Part shown: positions 5,074-50,604 of the stretch, in pieces
Layout: every line of letters starts with the position of its first letter
How positions within the stretch are numbered: the first letter of the stretch is position 1
The notes under the pieces: model-generated
Databases searched by the model: none
The model's input: only the letters and a program-made list of their open reading frames with translations
What the model was told of the DNA's origin: nothing
Assembly (NCBI GenBank): GCA_937944885.1
Contig: CALFBB010000052.1
Coordinates: 1-55,511, forward strand
From: an uncultured cyanobacterium
Lineage (GTDB): Bacteria > Cyanobacteriota > Cyanobacteriia > Thermostichales > Thermostichaceae
Direction: 5' to 3'
DNA: 55,511 bases
Program-made: the position numbers and the translations under genes

Positions 5074-6177
5074 ATGTCCCAGTCACCTGCTCGATCCGGC
5101 GCTACCCTTTCTCCCACTAGCGGTTCTGCCGAGCAGGAGGGGGGGCGGCTGCTGCGGGCTGCTCGGGGAGAAACATTGGATCGTCCACCGGTGTGGATGA
5201 TGCGGCAGGCAGGTCGCTACATGGCAGCTTACCGGGAGCTACAGAGCAAGTACACCTTTAAGCAGCGCTGTGAGATTCCGGAATTGGCAATTGAGATCTC
5301 CTTGCAACCCTTTCGAGCTTTTGCGCCGGACGGGGTGATCATGTTTAGTGATATTCTCACCCCCTTCGAGGGGATGGGGATCCCGTTTGAGCTGGTGGAA
5401 CACCAAGGGCCGATCATCGATCCACCAATTCGCTCGCAAGCCCAAATTGATCGGATTCGCTTGCTAGAGCCGGAAGAAAGTTTGCCCTTCATCAAGACCA
5501 TTTTGCAGACCTTGCGGCGGGAGATTGAGGGGAAAGCCACCCTGTTGGGGTTTGTGGGATCCCCGTGGACGCTGGCTTGCTACGCCGTGGAGGGACGTAG
5601 CTCCAAAGACTATGCTCACATCAAGAGCTTGGCCTTTACGCAGCCGCAGCTGTTGCACCAATTGCTCAGCAAACTGGCGGATAGCATTGCTCGTTACGTT
5701 GCTTACCAAATTGAGTGTGGCGCCCAGGTGGTGCAGCTGTTTGATACATGGGCTGGCCAGCTCAGCCCTACTGATTACGAGGATTGGGCCCTGCCTTACC
5801 AGAGGCAAATTGTGGATTATGTGAAGGCTCGATATCCGCAGGTACCGTTGATCCTCTACATTAACGGCAGCGGGGCCCTACTGGAGCGGGTGGGCCGGGC
5901 CGGAGTTGATGTTTTTAGCCTCGACTGGATGAGTGATATGGCGGAGGCCAGAGCCCGCTTGGGATCCCTGGCGGTGCAAGGCAATCTAGATCCGATGGTG
6001 TTGCTGGGATCCCCGCAGTTGATTCGGCAACGCACCCTGGAGGTGATTCAAAAGGCCGGTTCTCGGGGTCACATCATGAATCTTGGGCATGGTATTCACC
6101 AGACCACCCCCGAAGCGAATGTGCATCATTTCTTTGAAACTGTGCGCCAGGCGCCGGAGCTGCTGAAGGCTTTTTGA
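5074..6177 (+). CDS. hemE: Uroporphyrinogen decarboxylase
   Basis: The 367-residue protein shows all HemE landmarks: [18 protein letters not shown] (anionic substrate-binding segment), [13 protein letters not shown] containing the catalytic Asp region, [12 protein letters not shown], and [13 protein letters not shown] at the end. It removes four carboxyl groups from uroporphyrinogen III to give coproporphyrinogen III in the common heme and chlorophyll pathway, in the cytosol. The ATG at 5074 is chosen; the frame is open to a TTG 15 bases earlier, and neither has a strong ribosome site. It stands alone; hemH lies 45 kb away. Confidence 0.96.
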
Positions 6178-6430
6178 TGAATGTTGATGAATGGGCAAGC
6201 AGGTAAAGCAGAGTCTTGCCTCAAGCTTGTCTTACTTACCTATCTGCTGACTTATCTGGCACCTGCTGCAGGCGAGACTGTCTCGGTTGATTTCAATCGC
6301 CTCAACAGAGGAAGCATAGTCACTTGGCAACAGCAGGATTGCCACCCACCCTCCTAGAGTCAGTGAGCCAGCGGTCTAGGGTAGTACCGAGGAGGCTCAA
6401 CAGGGTAGCTAGTCAGCTTTTACAAGATAA

Positions 6431-8315: not shown

Positions 8316-10823
8316 GTGAAGGAACAGGGGCCAGAAAGAGGAATCCCGCTGGAGCTGCGGATTGGGGGAGGGTTATTGGCTGTACTCCCCCTGTTGCTGC
8401 TGGTGATTTGGAATCTCACGGATCCCCTGCCTCCTGCCTGGGATGAAGCTCAGCACCTGTTGCAGGCGCAGGCTTTTGCCGACCATCTAGGCCGCTTCCG
8501 CCGGGATCCCCTTTGGTGGGCTCAGTTTTGGCATTTGAGCCAGCGCTACCCCCCTTTGACCTACTGGCTGGGGATCCCCTTGGCCCTGGGGCACCCCTTT
8601 AGTCGGGCGGATGGACAGCTGCTGAACCTGGTGATGGTGGGCCTTTTAGGGGTGCTCACTCAACGGCTGGCCAGACGGCTATACGGCTCAGGGGGGGTAG
8701 GGTGGTTGGCGGCAGGGCTGCTCTTGCTCTATCCCGGCATCTCTGCTCTGGCCCATGTTTACATGCTGGATCTAACGCTGGTGGTGGCGGTAACGCTGGC
8801 TTTTTGGACGATGCTCATCCACTGGCAGCAGCCCTCCTGGAGAGCGGCAGTAGGGGTGGGGGTAGGGGTGGCGGTGGTGCTGCTGACCAAGTGGACAGGG
8901 GTATTGTTTCTGTTATTTCCTTTGGGGGCGTTGCTGGGGCGGGTAGGGTTGAAAGGCTTACAGGCCAGAGGTTGGCACAGAGGGATCCCTTTGGCCCAGA
9001 TGGCTCTGGCCATGGGGGTGGCCGGTTTGCTCTGCTGGCCTTGGTACGGGGCCAATTGGCTGTTTGTACTGAGCAACGGTTGGGGCTACACCGGCACAGC
9101 CCACTACTACATCCGCTGTCAGGCGGGATCCCTCTGCTGGTGGACAACCTACCTGCGCTGGCTACCGCAACAGATGAGCCCGGTTCTCTGTGGCTTACCC
9201 CTGTTGGCAGGGGTTGGGTGGGGCTGGAATCGGTTCAGGATCCGGGAGAGGGTTTTCCAGGTTCAGGGATCCCCAGAGAGGGTTCTTCTTCTCACCTACC
9301 TGTCTGGCTATGGCCTCTACACAGGGGTGGCCATCAAAGATATCCGCTTTACCTTACCCCTGTTGCCCCTGTTGGCGGTGCTCTCAGCCGGCGGGATCCA
9401 CCGGGCCTGGGGTTGGTTAGGCACCCAGACTTCAGGTCAGCGTTTACGCCGCGCCTGGCTCGGTTTGGGGCTGGCATTGGCATCCCTGGCTTTGGGCAGC
9501 TTTGGGCAACCCTTGACTCCAGGGGTTGCTCCCTTGTGGACAGCCATCCAAATGCAATGGCAAGGGCAGCAGCCTGAACAGGAACTGACCGAGTGGATGG
9601 GATCCCTGGTCCAGCCGGGCTTAACCACCACCCTGGGGGTGATCCCCAACACCGAACTCCTCTCTGCCGAAACCCTCACCTACCTGGCTGCTTTGCACCA
9701 CTGGCCCCTCACCTTTCGAGCAGCCGGCCAGACTCCCTGGCCGGAGTTGGAGCTGGCGCTGCTAGATGGTTTTGTCGATGCCGCCGGTGAGATGGGGATT
9801 GTTGGCCCTCATGGGGCAGCAAAAGAGCAGATCCGGCACAGTCTGAGTGGCCCAGAGTGGCGCAGGGATCCAGCCGTCCACCTACCGGCGGTGGGTTACT
9901 TGCAAACTTACTTTCCCCAACAGCAGCCAGTTGCAGTGCAAGACTGGCCGGTTGAAGTTGCAGAAGTGAAATTGACTGAGATTACCCCCCTTTTAGATTT
10001 GGGGATCCCGGCCTGGAAGTTAACTTGGCGGGGTCCGGCAGCGGATCTAGCCGAAACTTTGGTTTGGGCCAGCTTAGAAGATGCGCAAGGTCGGATCTGG
10101 GCCGAACGGGCTTGGGTACTGGGGCAGAACCGTCTGCAAACCCGTCAGCCGGGTCATTGGAGCATAGAAGAGATCTTGGCCTTGCCCCCCACCAACCTTC
10201 CCGAACCCGAAGAGGACAGGATTTCCGCGATCCTCCACCTAGACTGGCAGCCTCCCCACGCAAGCCAACACTCCCTCCGCCTCCCCTGGGTAAAATCAGC
10301 TTCAACCCCTCCTTCTCGAGCATCCCGGCTTTGGGGCGATCCACTACTTCCTCTTAAACAGGCTGCGTGGTCAGCCTCCATGGGGGATTTGGAAAACCTG
10401 TCTTTTTACCTAAATGCATGGACAACCCTGCAATACCCAACTTTTCTGACCGATCCGGATCGCACTCTGACTCACAAGCTGTTGCAGGGGGAATGGGAAC
10501 GGGCTCACCGACGCGCAGATCTGGCTCGGCAAATTCAAAACCATTACCAGCAGGGATTGATGCTGGCAGTCCTCCTTCAGCCTGAGGCTGCTCAGACTCA
10601 CTTCCAACAAATTACAGAGTTGGATCCCGGCGATGCTTGGGGGCGCGCCTATCTGGCCTTTTTAAGGCTACTGTTTACCGGAGATTTTGCCGGTCTTTCA
10701 GGGTTAAAAGAGGAGCTCTCTTCCCTCATCAGACCCCTTTGTGACCGGATGGAGCTTGATCCAGAGCTTAATTCCAGATTGAGCTGGTTTTGTTCTACCG
10801 GATTATCCTTGTTATCACTCTGA
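8316..10823 (+). CDS. GT-C family membrane glycosyltransferase (GT39/ArnT-like)
   Basis: An 835-residue protein starting with GTG at 8316. The amino half has about ten membrane helices; PAWDEAQHL near residue 37, with its acidic pair in the first periplasmic loop, and RYPPLTYWLG near 85 are typical of polyprenol-phosphate-sugar transferases of the GT39/ArnT fold. The carboxy half (from about 400) is soluble and ends in a tetratricopeptide-like helical segment (QTHFQQITELDPGDAWGRAY). It probably moves a sugar from a lipid carrier to an envelope acceptor outside the membrane; donor and acceptor are unknown. The last 175 bases overlap the convergent LysR gene. Confidence 0.75.
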   Translation: MKEQGPERGIPLELRIGGGLLAVLPLLLLVIWNLTDPLPPAWDEAQHLLQAQAFADHLGRFRRDPLWWAQFWHLSQRYPPLTYWLGIPLALGHPFSRADGQLLNLVMVGLLGVLTQRLARRLYGSGGVGWLAAGLLLLYPGISALAHVYMLDLTLVVAVTLAFWTMLIHWQQPSWRAAVGVGVGVAVVLLTKWTGVLFLLFPLGALLGRVGLKGLQARGWHRGIPLAQMALAMGVAGLLCWPWYGANWLFVLSNGWGYTGTAHYYIRCQAGSLCWWTTYLRWLPQQMSPVLCGLPLLAGVGWGWNRFRIRERVFQVQGSPERVLLLTYLSGYGLYTGVAIKDIRFTLPLLPLLAVLSAGGIHRAWGWLGTQTSGQRLRRAWLGLGLALASLALGSFGQPLTPGVAPLWTAIQMQWQGQQPEQELTEWMGSLVQPGLTTTLGVIPNTELLSAETLTYLAALHHWPLTFRAAGQTPWPELELALLDGFVDAAGEMGIVGPHGAAKEQIRHSLSGPEWRRDPAVHLPAVGYLQTYFPQQQPVAVQDWPVEVAEVKLTEITPLLDLGIPAWKLTWRGPAADLAETLVWASLEDAQGRIWAERAWVLGQNRLQTRQPGHWSIEEILALPPTNLPEPEEDRISAILHLDWQPPHASQHSLRLPWVKSASTPPSRASRLWGDPLLPLKQAAWSASMGDLENLSFYLNAWTTLQYPTFLTDPDRTLTHKLLQGEWERAHRRADLARQIQNHYQQGLMLAVLLQPEAAQTHFQQITELDPGDAWGRAYLAFLRLLFTGDFAGLSGLKEELSSLIRPLCDRMELDPELNSRLSWFCSTGLSLLSL

Positions 10824-33550: not shown

Positions 33551-35275
33551 TTACTGTGGGGGAGCCGTGGTTTTTTCCTCCACCGCTTCAACGGCCTGAT
33601 CCGGTTCGGGGCTAGAGCGGCGCATCAGTTGCCAGCCCTCTACCTGCGCCAAGGGTTGTAACCCCAAGGTCGCTAGCTCCACCTGCTCCGCTTGCACCGG
33701 CGAGACCCAAAGGTGGGCGCCATGCTCCCCTCGCCGTAAGGCTTGATCATCCACCCAAAGGCCAGGGTTAGGCGTATAAAAGGCAACTGCTTGAGCCTGA
33801 CACACATCCGCTAAGCCGCTCCGCCCAATATCAACGGCTATCTCTTGGGATCCCGGCAACAGCTGTTCCCAGTCTATTCGGGCAAAAGCGGGGTTGAAAT
33901 TGCCAAAATCCGGCCGCAGGACAATGGTAACCAAGGTAACAAGGCTGCCGGTCAAGAGGGTCCCCATCCACAATCCAGCGGCATAGTGCAGCACCCGCCG
34001 CCAACTCCAAATCACCGGCAGGAGGATGTACAGGAGGCCAACTGCCAGCAATGGCCCAGCATGGGGCTGCAGGAGTTCAAGCCCCTCCACCTCCAGGATC
34101 ACCGTCACCCCCAGTCCGAGCAGCAACAGACCCACCGCTGCCAACCCCCAAGAGAGGATCCCGCTTAAGCGGGGCTGCTCCCGCATCTGCAGAGCTTGAT
34201 CCAGGGTGACACCGGCCAAGAGCGCCAACCAGGGATAAAGCTGCACCGTGTAGTAGGGGGTTTTGGTGGGGTAAGCCTGCAACAGCAGCAGCAGCAGCAG
34301 CGGGAAAGACCAGATCAGCAGCGTGGAGCCGGGTTTCTGCCGCACCAACAAAACCCCACCCAGCAGACCCAAAACCGTCCAAGGAAAGCCATGCAGCGGA
34401 ATATGCCAGAAGTAATACGGGCCGGTAGCATCAGCGTGAAAAGGCTCGGTGCCTAGATCTCGCACCTTGCCCACCAAGGTGGCCACAACCTGCAGGCCGT
34501 ACACTTGCCAAGCCAAGCCCAACCACAGCCCAAACATCCCCACCCCTAACAACAGCGCCAGCCAAAACTGCGCTCTCCCCACCCAGTGGCGCCGTTGCTG
34601 GACCAGGTAGGGCAAGAGTGCTACTCCCGGTAGCAGGATCATGGCACTTTTCATCAGCAGACCTAAGCCCAAAGCCAGCCCCATCAGCCAAAACCAACGC
34701 TTGTGGCCGTGGATCCCGTTGACCAAAGCCAAGATCCCAATCAACTCCAGGCAGGTAAGAGGTACATCCTGACCCACTAAGCGCCCCTGCTGCACCCACA
34801 GGTAACACAAGGGCAGAGCGATCATACCTAACACGGCAGCCCGCACCGGCAGAAAAAACCGTCCAATCCAGCCGATGAGTGGGATCGAAATCAACGCCGC
34901 GAGGATCCCGGGCAGCCGAGCCGCCCACTCACTCACTCCATATAGGGCAAAGCTCAGGGCCACACTCCACGTCAGGAGGGGAGGTTTCTCAAAAAAGGGT
35001 TCTCCCAAGAAAGTCGGCCCCAGCCAGCTGCTCCCCCGCAACAGCTCACGGGCCATTTGGGCATAAAAGCTCTCATCACAGCCATCTAAGCTGGGATCCA
35101 CCCCCGCAAGCACAAACAGAGGTATGGCCAACCCCATAATCAGCAGGCTCAAGGCCAAAAAGGGCAGCAAATGGGGATCCCGGCGAAACTGCATAAAATC
35201 GCTGGAGCCCGGCAGGTAACCCATTCCGAAGCGGGGGGAAGCATTGAGGCCGCTTTGGTTCTCAAAATGACGCAT
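33551..35275 (-). CDS. GT-C membrane glycosyltransferase (GT39/ArnT-like)
   Basis: A protein of about 574 residues with a dozen membrane helices. The first periplasmic loop reads DGCDESFYAQMARELL, with catalytic acidic residues, followed by GEPFFEKPPLLTW, the lipid-sugar-binding motif of ArnT/PMT-type enzymes. It should transfer a sugar from a polyprenyl phosphate to an envelope target on the outer face of the membrane. The start is uncertain: ATG 35275 is used, but the frame opens at 35302 and another Met lies near MQFRRDP. It is a different paralog from the gene at 8316. The ABC permease gene begins 26 bases downstream. Confidence 0.85.
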   Translation of the reverse strand: MRHFENQSGLNASPRFGMGYLPGSSDFMQFRRDPHLLPFLALSLLIMGLAIPLFVLAGVDPSLDGCDESFYAQMARELLRGSSWLGPTFLGEPFFEKPPLLTWSVALSFALYGVSEWAARLPGILAALISIPLIGWIGRFFLPVRAAVLGMIALPLCYLWVQQGRLVGQDVPLTCLELIGILALVNGIHGHKRWFWLMGLALGLGLLMKSAMILLPGVALLPYLVQQRRHWVGRAQFWLALLLGVGMFGLWLGLAWQVYGLQVVATLVGKVRDLGTEPFHADATGPYYFWHIPLHGFPWTVLGLLGGVLLVRQKPGSTLLIWSFPLLLLLLLQAYPTKTPYYTVQLYPWLALLAGVTLDQALQMREQPRLSGILSWGLAAVGLLLLGLGVTVILEVEGLELLQPHAGPLLAVGLLYILLPVIWSWRRVLHYAAGLWMGTLLTGSLVTLVTIVLRPDFGNFNPAFARIDWEQLLPGSQEIAVDIGRSGLADVCQAQAVAFYTPNPGLWVDDQALRRGEHGAHLWVSPVQAEQVELATLGLQPLAQVEGWQLMRRSSPEPDQAVEAVEEKTTAPPQ

Positions 35276-35368
35276 GGGACAACCCATCTGGAACGGCAAC
35301 AAAAGAACGATCCATCAACTGCTCGCGTCTCCCACTCTAGACCCTAGACTTTTAACCCTTGCTGTGGG

Positions 35369-36172
35369 TTAGGGAAGCTCTAGGGATCCGGGAGGATACA
35401 CTGGCTCCGGCCCAGCCTGGGAAAAGAGCAGCGGGAACCAGCCAAAGAACTGATCAACATAAGGGTGCAGCGTTGGATCCAGATAGTAGAAATTCTCGCC
35501 CCGATCCGTAAATTCCCAAAATTCGGCGGTGGTGGATTGCAATTCCTGCCGAATAATTTGCAAGCCTACCAAGGGCTCTTGGTGCATATCTAAGTCAATT
35601 CTAAGTCAATGAATTTGGCCAGCTCCTCACGTCCACAGCTGAGAAAATAGGCAGCCAGCCGCACCTAGGTTTTCGGATCCCACGCAAAGTGGTTTCCTGT
35701 GGCTCAGGTCTAGATCCAGACGGAGCAAGACTTGCAAAATGGCTTCTGTAGGATTTGAGCGAAGAGCACAGCTGAGCTGCACCAGTAAGCCTAGATCAAA
35801 ACCAAGGGTTTCGGAGAGAAAAAATAGACCTGCTTTATAAGCAATCAAGCTGTAGTAACGAAAGTAACCGGCAACCTGCGGCACCAGAGCATCTTGACCG
35901 TTGCGGAGTGCAGCTTCAGCCAACAGGCGATACTGTTTAAGCAGGTTGTAGCCGGTGCGAATATTTTGGCTGTTGATCACTGCCCGTAGATAGGTGTTGA
36001 AAAACTTCACCACCCACCAGGCTATTGTTAAGTTTTGCGCTTGTAAGGCTTGGATCCCTAGCTCCCGGCTGTGAATGGCTACCAGGGTGCTCACCTGGCG
36101 CATGCCGTTGAGACCCTCACCGAGTTGCTACCACCCCAGCACTCCAGAATAAGGTTCGCTGTGTGCGGGCAT
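35369..36172 (-). pseudogene. Broken gene of unknown function
   Basis: Two minus-strand frames (36103 to 35627 and 35587 to 35369) belong to one former gene. Protein-like sequence also continues upstream of the first Met as LGEGLNG, back to an in-frame TAG at 36128-36130; before that stop lies a short frame starting at 36172. Near 35663-35670 a one-base shift is needed to continue into VRLAAYFLSCGREELAKF. There the 11-base word TCTAAGTCAAT is duplicated in tandem (35589-35610); removing one copy joins that frame to MHQEPLVGLQIIRQELQ. So it carries at least two frameshifts and probably a nonsense codon. The product was helical; I do not recognise the family. Confidence 0.75.
35589..35610. repeat. 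Perfect 11-base tandem duplication
   Basis: TCTAAGTCAAT occurs twice without a gap. It lies inside the broken gene and causes a frameshift there; deletion of one copy restores a continuous frame. Confidence 0.95.
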
Positions 36173-36234
36173 ATCCTGGCAGCCTGGGAAGAGCGCTAGG
36201 CATCTCGCCCATTCTCCGATGCAGAGGGAGTACC

Positions 36235-37791
36235 TCAATACTCACTCAAGAGGGCTTCCACAAACTCGTAACTGGAAAAAGGACGCAGATCCTCTAACCC
36301 TTCCCCAGCACCGATGAAGCGAATTGGTAGGTGCATCTGTTGAGTAATGGCCAGGGCAATCCCCCCTTTGGCGGTGCTATCCAGCTTGGTTAGGATCACC
36401 CCACTCAACTTGGCGGCCTCGGCAAACACCTGCGCTTGGCGCAAGCCATTTTGCCCTTGGGTTGCATCCAACACCAGCAACGCTTCCACAGTTGCTGCGG
36501 GAGCTTTCTTGTCGATGATGCGACGAATCTTGGCCAGCTCCTCCATCAGGTTCTTTTTGTTTTGCAGACGGCCTGCTGTGTCCACAAGCAGTAACTCTGT
36601 GCCCCGGGCTTGGGCTGCCAGCAGGGCATCAAACACCACCGCCGCCGGATCGGTATTCTGAGCAGGATTGGCAATCACCTCCACCCCGGCCCGCTCTCCC
36701 CAAACTTTCAGCTGCTCCACAGCAGCAGCCCGAAAGGTATCGGCAGCCGCAATGAGACATTTGTAGCCGGACTCACGGGCCACATGAGCAATTTTGCCAA
36801 TGGTGGTGGTTTTGCCTGCCCCATTCACCCCGACGATCAACCACACATTGAGATGGTCTCGTTGAGGGGCAAAGGTAGGATCTCCAATCGTGAGCATTTC
36901 CCGCATTTGCTGTTTGAGGTATTTCACGGCTTCTTCTGGCGGCAACACCTCCTCTCGCATCCGTTTTTGCAAAGCTTGGATAATCCGCTCAGTGGCATCG
37001 ATGCCCACATCTGCCTGCAGCAGCACCATCTCGATTTCTTCAACAGCCTCTTGGTCAATCGGGCCACGGCCCACCAGGGCTTTGAGTTGGTTGATCAGAT
37101 TCAGGCGGGTTTTGCCCAATCCTCGGCGTAACTTTTGCAACCAGGAGATTTCTTCCGCCGAGATTTCCTCGGGCCGACGCCCTTGTGCTGCCAGGATCTC
37201 GGCAGACCAGCGAAAGCCCTCATCAAAAACCAGTCCCTCCGTGCCACTAAGGGGAACGGTGGAAGGTTCTGGAGCTGCGGGTACAGGTTCCGGCTCGGCA
37301 ATGGCAGTGGCTTCTAGTGCTTGCAGACGTTCGGCAGCACGAGGGGCAAGATCAAAAAAGGAAGGAGCCGCAACCGATTGAGCCGGGCCGGGTACTTCCT
37401 CCACGGTTGGGACAGCCGGAGATCCGGATTCCTCCGCTGCAGTAGAAGAGGAAGTGGCCTGTTCAGGGGTTGTTTCCGCGGCAGCTACTGGACTGGGGGT
37501 GTCTCCGGCAGAAGCAGATGGGGGAGCCGGGATCCCTTCTTTTGGGGCAGTAGGTTCTGAAGCCTGCGGCGTCTCAACGGCTGCAGAGGGGGTCGGAACA
37601 GAGGCACTGCGAGCCGCTTCGCGGGCTTTTAAGTTGGCATAGGCTGCCTTGGCGAAGGCCAAATAATCTTCTGGAGTGACTTGGGCCGGCTCTGCTGCTG
37701 GGGGTGAAGCAGTCTCTGGGGCCTCCTGTTGTGGAGAGTCTGCTGCACTGGCAGGGTCGGTATAGCGACGACGAAACCAATCAAAGGCCAT
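36235..37791 (-). CDS. ftsY: Signal recognition particle receptor FtsY
   Basis: The 518-residue protein has a long acidic Ala/Pro/Glu-rich amino A-domain (to about 180), then the NG domains: GVNGAGKTTTIGKIAH (P-loop), AADTFRAAAVEQL, DTAGRLQNKKNLMEEL, and GVILTKLDSTAKGG (GTP specificity), closing with GAGEGLEDLRPF. It is the membrane-docking GTPase for SRP-bound ribosomes. The start at 37791 gives MAFDWFRRRYTD, an amphipathic membrane-targeting opening. The gene diverges from atpD; the 363-base region between them should carry both promoters. Confidence 0.96.
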   Translation of the reverse strand: MAFDWFRRRYTDPASAADSPQQEAPETASPPAAEPAQVTPEDYLAFAKAAYANLKAREAARSASVPTPSAAVETPQASEPTAPKEGIPAPPSASAGDTPSPVAAAETTPEQATSSSTAAEESGSPAVPTVEEVPGPAQSVAAPSFFDLAPRAAERLQALEATAIAEPEPVPAAPEPSTVPLSGTEGLVFDEGFRWSAEILAAQGRRPEEISAEEISWLQKLRRGLGKTRLNLINQLKALVGRGPIDQEAVEEIEMVLLQADVGIDATERIIQALQKRMREEVLPPEEAVKYLKQQMREMLTIGDPTFAPQRDHLNVWLIVGVNGAGKTTTIGKIAHVARESGYKCLIAAADTFRAAAVEQLKVWGERAGVEVIANPAQNTDPAAVVFDALLAAQARGTELLLVDTAGRLQNKKNLMEELAKIRRIIDKKAPAATVEALLVLDATQGQNGLRQAQVFAEAAKLSGVILTKLDSTAKGGIALAITQQMHLPIRFIGAGEGLEDLRPFSSYEFVEALLSEY

Positions 37792-41329: not shown

Positions 41330-41353
41330 AAGAGATCTTAAAAGAGATCTTAA
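41330..41353. repeat. Perfect 12-base tandem duplication
   Basis: AAGAGATCTTAA occurs twice without a gap, in the leader of rsmI (minus strand). Each unit contains the palindrome AGATCT. Confidence 0.92.
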
Positions 41354-41435
41354 TTCCAGATCTTCAAGGCCAGCCTGAACGGCTGTTCCTTGGCTCCTGT
41401 AGCCAAGGGATCCCTCTTTTTCGGTCAGTGTCCCT

Positions 41436-41628
41436 ATGCCAGCTGTCAACCATCTGGGCATCAGTTGAATCGACCGTTGCAATTGCTGCTGCCGCTACTG
41501 CATGTGCAGAGTTAACCTGGCTGCCAACCCCGGAGCGCCTCACCGATGCCGAGATCCTCACCCTGATTCAAGAGGTGTTTTTGCCTCTGGGGATTGATCG
41601 CTTTCGCCTCACCGGCGGAGAACCCTGA
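41436..41628 (+). pseudogene. moaA: Relic of moaA (GTP 3',8-cyclase), amino part
   Basis: From ATG 41436 the frame reads [10 protein letters not shown], then a TGA at 41466, then [12 protein letters not shown], which matches the MoaA opening (LRIS-IDRCN) with the radical-SAM cysteines in the exact C-X3-C-X2-C spacing. After 41504 a one-base shift leads to [18 protein letters not shown], then [13 protein letters not shown], again MoaA sequence, before TGA at 41626. So the first 60 or so codons are present, broken by a nonsense codon and frameshifts, and the rest of the gene is missing. MoaA starts molybdenum cofactor synthesis; an intact moaC lies at 47974, so a functional moaA is expected elsewhere. 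Confidence 0.82.
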
Positions 41629-41732
41629 ATCTGGCCAGATCAACCTGCGGGCAGGGATCCCGGTCAAGCATCTCCAGCATCAGGTGCACACTGGAGATCA
41701 AATCAAACATCAACTTCAAATTGGGGGCTAGC

Positions 41733-47973: not shown

Positions 47974-48483
47974 TCAAAGCTCAAAAGGACCAGACTTGCC
48001 ACCGTACTTGCGCAACAGGCGGATATTCTCAATCACCATGGTCTTTTCTAGGACCTTGGCCATGTCGTAGAGGGTGAGGGCAGCCACAGAAACCGCCGTT
48101 AGGGCCTCCATTTCTACGCCTTCTACGCCAGTTTGGGCGGGGGTTTTGACGGTGGCAGTGATGAGAAATCCGGGCAAATGGGGATCCGAGTCTAGATCAA
48201 CATGGATACTGCTCAGGGGCAAAGGATGACACAGAGGGATCAAGTCGGCAGTGCGTTTAGCTGCCATGATCCCGGCTAAGCGAGCAGTTTCCACCCCATT
48301 TCCCTTCGGCCCTTGACCGGCCAATATGGCCTGCAAAGTGGCTTCACTCATACGCAACTGACCCTGAGCCGTAGCCATGCGTAGGGTCACTGACTTTTCT
48401 GGGACATCTACCATGCTCATTTGCCCAGGGTCATCCAGGTGGGTGAGGCCAAGATCGTGACAGGGATCCGACTGCACAGGCAA
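47974..48483 (-). CDS. moaC: Cyclic pyranopterin monophosphate synthase MoaC
   Basis: The 169-residue protein reads [40 protein letters not shown] and [20 protein letters not shown], the conserved order of MoaC, with the catalytic Lys and His residues in place. It converts the MoaA product to cyclic pyranopterin monophosphate in molybdenum-cofactor synthesis. The start is TTG 48483 or GTG 48477, behind GGGAG. Upstream on the same strand, 34 bases away, is the Tic20-like gene. A moaA relic lies 6 kb away. Confidence 0.95.
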
Positions 48484-50578: not shown

Positions 50579-50604
50579 TCATCTTCTAAAGTCATCTTCT
50601 AAAG
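50579..50604. repeat. Perfect 13-base tandem duplication
   Basis: TCATCTTCTAAAG occurs twice without a gap, followed by the related ATTTTCTAAAA. It lies between the decayed gene and hemH. Confidence 0.95.

Follow-up and report, generated by a model that had tools for sequence, protein, structure and literature searches.

On the minus strand of the window, the 55,511-nucleotide stretch of cyanobacterial DNA analysed here, the remains of a gene lie between ftsY and a gene for a PMT_2-type glycosyltransferase. We estimate at about 94 per cent the probability that this was a single-copy gene of the DUF2254 family (PF10011), coding for a membrane protein of about 570–630 aa, and that it is now a pseudogene in the hot-spring-type cyanobacterium from which the window comes. 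In alignments with sister genomes, the main damage to the gene is an internal deletion of about 845 bases. The source genome measures 2.82 Mb in 62 contigs (the window belongs to contig C52 of G000) and its completeness is estimated at 95.26 per cent. The features of the locus, from the downstream to the upstream neighbour, are the following.

33551–35302, minus strand: PMT_2-family glycosyltransferase gene, named by Pfam; open; downstream neighbour.
35369–35588, minus strand: surviving 3' coding stretch, sister residues about 497–572, with the native stop TAA at 35371–35369.
35589–35610, minus strand: 11 bases duplicated in tandem, the copies identical; seen in one of six genomes, that of the window.
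35665–35667, minus strand: nonsense TAG (CAG in the sisters), a Gln codon in all five sisters, Q474 of L014.
Between 35674 and 35673, minus strand: 1-base deletion relative to all five sister copies.
Between 35707 and 35706, minus strand: 7-base deletion relative to all five sister copies.
35707–36121, minus strand: surviving coding stretch, sister residues about 320–457, holding most of the open reading frame 35627–36103.
36117–36130, minus strand: deletion junction from local alignment, about 845 bases net relative to L014.
36130–36203, minus strand: 5' stub, some 24 codons of the DUF2254 gene, aligned with the start of the sister genes.
36235–37791, minus strand: ftsY (SRP receptor GTPase; SRP54 and SRP54_N domains), intact upstream neighbour.

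A homologue of the DNA at 35300–36300 adjoins ftsY in all five sister genomes, with 70–79 per cent identity. The ftsY open reading frame is on the same side of the locus in each of the five, and the gene order ftsY, DUF2254 gene, PMT_2 glycosyltransferase gene is the same in the window and the sisters. Relative to the window, the sisters have additional sequence between the homologous stretch and ftsY. With the same neighbours and continuous homology, the remnant is an orthologue of the sister gene. The contig scans gave no further genome of the species to which the window belongs; the comparison is with sister species. Four of the five sisters have an uninterrupted open reading frame at the locus (566–627 aa).

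L015, genome G002: single open reading frame, 614 aa.
L016, genome G003: single open reading frame, 627 aa.
L014, genome G004: single open reading frame, 572 aa.
L013, genome G005: single open reading frame, 566 aa.

The preliminary description of this DNA, made from the sequence alone, left the family unrecognized, and Pfam finds no match in either fragment of the window. It is the intact copy of a sister, with its match to PF10011, that names the family. The Pfam scan of sister copies took in the intact L014 protein and the two open reading frames of the broken copy in the fifth sister, G001 (L017). Residues 32–213 of the L014 protein match PF10011 above the curated cut-off (E = 1.2e-15), over positions 9–178 of the 368 in the profile. 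The upstream reading frame of the broken G001 copy matches the same family at 3.8e-17; its downstream reading frame has no Pfam match above the cut-off. Whole-genome searches give one PF10011 match above the cut-off per sister genome, in all five at this locus, and none in the window's genome, an absence to be read against a draft of 62 contigs, about 95 per cent complete, from which another copy could be missing. The DUF2254 match expected of the ancestral state is present at the sister loci and absent from the window remnant, from which the matched part is deleted. The model, described in Pfam as 'Predicted membrane protein', leaves the C-terminal half of the cyanobacterial L014 protein unmatched; what the window keeps of the gene is mainly its C-terminal continuation, nearly all of the Pfam-matched part being lost. 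Residues 326–457 of L014 are 80 per cent identical to the first window fragment (132 aa) and residues 497–572 are 79 per cent identical to the second. The fragments thus match consecutive parts of one sister open reading frame and are therefore pieces of one gene.

Across the order, the protein was matched in eight of nine genomes, the exception being G006; G007 has two matches on two contigs, one of them at a contig start. Genome contigs scanned with one protein gave no relative; the scan with an alignment gave three named loci: L036, from a metagenome-assembled genome (MAG) named Synechococcus sp. M44_DOE_062, and L037 and L038, from MAGs named Synechococcaceae cyanobacterium SM2_3_2 and SM2_3_1. 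A sequence search of L014 against PDB chains gave no match up to E = 1. The structure model of the sister protein L036 (two sequences) is poor (mean pLDDT 52.7), its C-terminal helical part being better predicted. A Foldseek search with this model against the PDB gave nothing at E = 0.001 or better, and its best sub-threshold matches include designed helical-repeat proteins and TPR domains. PMC11184937 treats DUF2254 as a family of membrane proteins, some predicted to be knotted and others unknotted; its table has no solved structure for the family, and its passages on the family state no function.

The large deletion was located by local alignment, the MAFFT alignment having put the 5' stub in the wrong place; its end points come from comparison with L013 and L014, and the remaining lesions from comparison with all five sisters. 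Position 36130 of the window corresponds to position 3425 of L014, and 36121 to 2571; 853 bases of L014 stand opposite eight window bases, a net loss of about 845. This takes away codons 36–319 approximately (L014 count), with nearly the whole Pfam-matched part, half of the protein. Stops are found at the junction in two frames (TAG at 36130–36128, TGA at 36119–36117). The stub on the far side of the junction begins with an ATG at 36203–36201, aligned with Met 4 of the sisters; a further in-frame ATG is present at 36212–36210, and the GTG start of the sisters falls in a short gap just upstream of the stub. Further gaps relative to the sisters leave the stub in one frame and were not counted as lesions.

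Downstream of the junction, the 7-base deletion, the 1-base deletion (next to an AAAA run) and the nonsense TAG listed above follow one another within a short distance. Near the 3' end there are two gaps of six bases each, which preserve the frame and fall where the sisters also vary in length; they were not counted. Relative to the intact orthologues the gene thus carries more than one disabling lesion. No Rfam match was found at the gathering thresholds in 35000–36600.

These results agree with the preliminary description that one gene has been broken by several lesions, the duplication among them, and extend its list of damage, which was incomplete. Its single base shift near 35665 is replaced by the 7-base gap, the 1-base gap and the in-frame TAG at 35667–35665. 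Its TAG at 36128 does exist, on the junction of the large deletion, and is no point lesion in a gene otherwise complete. The span that it gave to the gene, 35369–36172, misses the 5' stub (from the ATG at 36203 to about 36130).

The two copies of the 11-base repeat, TCTAAGTCAAT, stand head to tail at 35589–35599 and 35600–35610 and occur nowhere else in the window, which has no other exact tandem repeat with an 11-base unit. As first described, removal of one copy joins the two frames: frame 2 is open to 35593 and frame 1 resumes from 35605, in agreement with a clean insertion of 11 bases that shifted the frame. In the alignment with the five sister copies, the sole gap at this place is one of 11 columns in each sister, and the 30-base string formed by the duplication and the eight bases following it in the gene sense is found in one of the six genomes of the genus. 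In the gene sense both copies read ATTGACTTAGA, and each has GAC at the position that codes for Tyr in all five sisters (the invariant residue 494 of L014). The Tyr-to-Asp change is present in both copies and is therefore older than the duplication. Such an early change would fit a gene already without constraint, a single substitution being no proof of it. The reading first given to the duplication, that it shows how the gene was damaged, is not supported, given the deletion of half of the protein and the earlier substitution.

Short exact tandem repeats, usually explained by replication slippage, are frequent in this genome, and the 11-base duplication needs no special cause. The window contains five exact tandem repeats of unit 10–30, which is beyond chance: 25 dinucleotide shuffles give a mean of 0.08. 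A further ten stretches from the genome, 192,935 bases in all, contain 29, and samples of sister genomes one in 80 kb (G001), three in 60 kb (G002) and eight in 60 kb (G004); this is a rough control, as the ten own-genome stretches were taken at the starts of contigs and not at random, and the sister side consists of ten 20-kb stretches from three of the five sisters. The other exact tandem repeats of the window, of unit 10–13, are at 6174–6193, 9489–9508, 41330–41353 and 50579–50604. The one at 9489 is inside an open 835-aa reading frame; those at 41330–41353 and 50579–50604 are between reading frames of 120 aa or more.

The age of the decay was approached through codon comparisons over 234 codons, gap-free in all six rows and below window position 36115. 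The pairwise dN/dS of the window is 0.115 relative to L013 and 0.111 relative to L014, values that give no clear sign of long relaxed selection; most of the divergence therefore arose under constraint. Substitutions polarized on the window branch amount to 26 synonymous and five non-synonymous at sites where L013 and L015 agree, and to 34 and nine where L014 and L015 agree. The corresponding synonymous/non-synonymous counts for the intact sisters are 14/4, 17/5, 29/4 and 21/1, and no clear non-synonymous excess on the window branch relative to them was found in these polarized counts. Because the substitution pattern of the remnant is still that of a gene, the decay looks recent relative to the split of the sisters. 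Of the 160 residues on which all five sisters agree, 14 are changed in the window; leave-one-out counts are 2/148, 2/148, 5/151 and 4/150 for the four intact copies and 12/158 for the broken G001 copy. The excess of the window may give weak support to decay, the copies differing in their overall divergence.

One alternative is that selection maintains a shortened C-terminal-domain protein, still made from the ATG at 36103. The open reading frame there is 158 aa long, with 132 aa that are 80 per cent identical to the intact relative, dN/dS in that part (136 codons before the frame shifts) is low, 0.099 relative to L013 and 0.127 relative to L014, and the C-terminal helical part is the best predicted in the low-confidence sister model. 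However, the unused stretch behind the frame shifts (98 codons) has similarly low values, 0.143 and 0.089, and the low value therefore looks inherited from before the decay. The reading frame also finishes in a frame-shifted tail, is without the membrane part and the original start of the gene, and is altered in its open part at eight residues invariant in the five sisters. We consider a functional short protein very improbable.

The chances are slimmer still that some of the lesions are errors of assembly or sequencing. The genome is a draft of 62 contigs and one lesion is a single base beside an AAAA run, but five lesions of different kinds are found in about 800 bases while the flanking genes are open. 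A nonsense substitution and the junction of the 845-base deletion are improbable as errors, and an error at any one lesion would leave the verdict unchanged.

The preliminary description proposed to compare the locus in sister strains, to see whether the duplication is recent or phase-variable. In a phase-variable gene, the copy number of the 11-base repeat would switch expression on and off. The repeat is indeed an exact tandem one inside a coding stretch, and the length of its unit is not divisible by three. Against this, it has two copies only, each of the five sister species has a single copy, and four other disabling lesions, including the 845-base loss, persist at any copy number. Phase variation is very unlikely, a barely credible reading, because no copy number of the repeat restores the full-length gene, and none gives the intact frame expected of a contingency gene. 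The idea that the two fragments are separate small proteins, open reading frames set apart by stops and by the frame-breaking repeat, is negligible, as one sister reading frame covers both consecutively and the homologues matching each frame separately that would have spoken for it did not appear.

The DUF2254 gene is also broken, independently, in G001. The copy there (L017 1689–3112, on a contig of 2,932,766 bases) is split into two overlapping open reading frames by the absence of 73 bases relative to L013, L014 and L015, 73 not being a multiple of three; this deletion is near the right end of the window's own. Broken copies, produced by different deletions, are thus present in two of the six genomes of the genus, which suggests that at least two of its lineages can do without the gene. 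A wider proposal, that the DUF2254 gene has been lost repeatedly in function-shedding lineages of the genus and that tandem duplications are unusually frequent and gene-breaking in the window's lineage, we regard as doubtful. Passages of PMC11456837 report genome reduction for Synechococcus A/B, a group to which the window's organism may belong, and losing the DUF2254 gene would agree with what those passages describe.

The sister genes show some variation of their own. The G002 gene has an altered 3' end (L015 about 1300–1830): it holds two in-frame copies of a dispersed repeat, its C-terminus differs, and additional sequence follows the gene. This 21-base repeat, CGYRTHAGCGGGACGGAGTCC, is found in the sister genes L014, L015 and L016 and in the genomes G000–G005, often in tandem at 24-base spacing and in frame within genes (peptide RVSGTES). 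Exact matches number 24 in G001, 86 in G002, 59 in G003, 22 in G004, 11 in G005 and one in the window's genome; the backwards control pattern gives 0 in all six genomes. In-frame repeat elements are known from other bacteria and CGYRTHAGCGGGACGGAGTCC resembles them. A literal search for its 14-letter core found no mention in the library of papers searched.

Elsewhere in the window, 41428–41640 is a second remnant, matching moaA (TIGR02666 positions 33–74) with a TGA inside. A moaA match above the cut-off is present in all five sister genomes and absent from the window's genome (assembly 95 per cent complete), and PF00384 (molybdopterin oxidoreductase) has no match in that genome and at least one in each of the five sisters. 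An intact-looking moaC is present at 47974–48483. These patterns suggest that the window's genome may have lost the use of the molybdenum cofactor, the assembly being 95 per cent complete.

We propose that the DUF2254 gene became dispensable in the lineage of the window. A deletion of about 845 bases took out codons 36–319 approximately, and the 7-base and 1-base deletions, the nonsense change and the 11-base duplication broke the other parts. The duplication was probably ordinary slippage, in a gene where one or more invariant residues had already been substituted. The gene-like substitution pattern indicates that these losses may be recent on the scale of the genus. The locus matters little alone; it is a clear example of gene decay in which comparison with sister genomes identifies every lesion, it assigns a previously unplaced gene to a family and it corrects the idea of a phase switch.

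The case is real but ordinary: a fairly recent pseudogene of a known domain family. It resembles other bacterial pseudogenes formed by deletion and small indels, with the same internal deletion, frame shifts, nonsense codon and kept gene order. To that type it adds nothing unusual, its distinctive detail being the neat, exact 11-base duplication.
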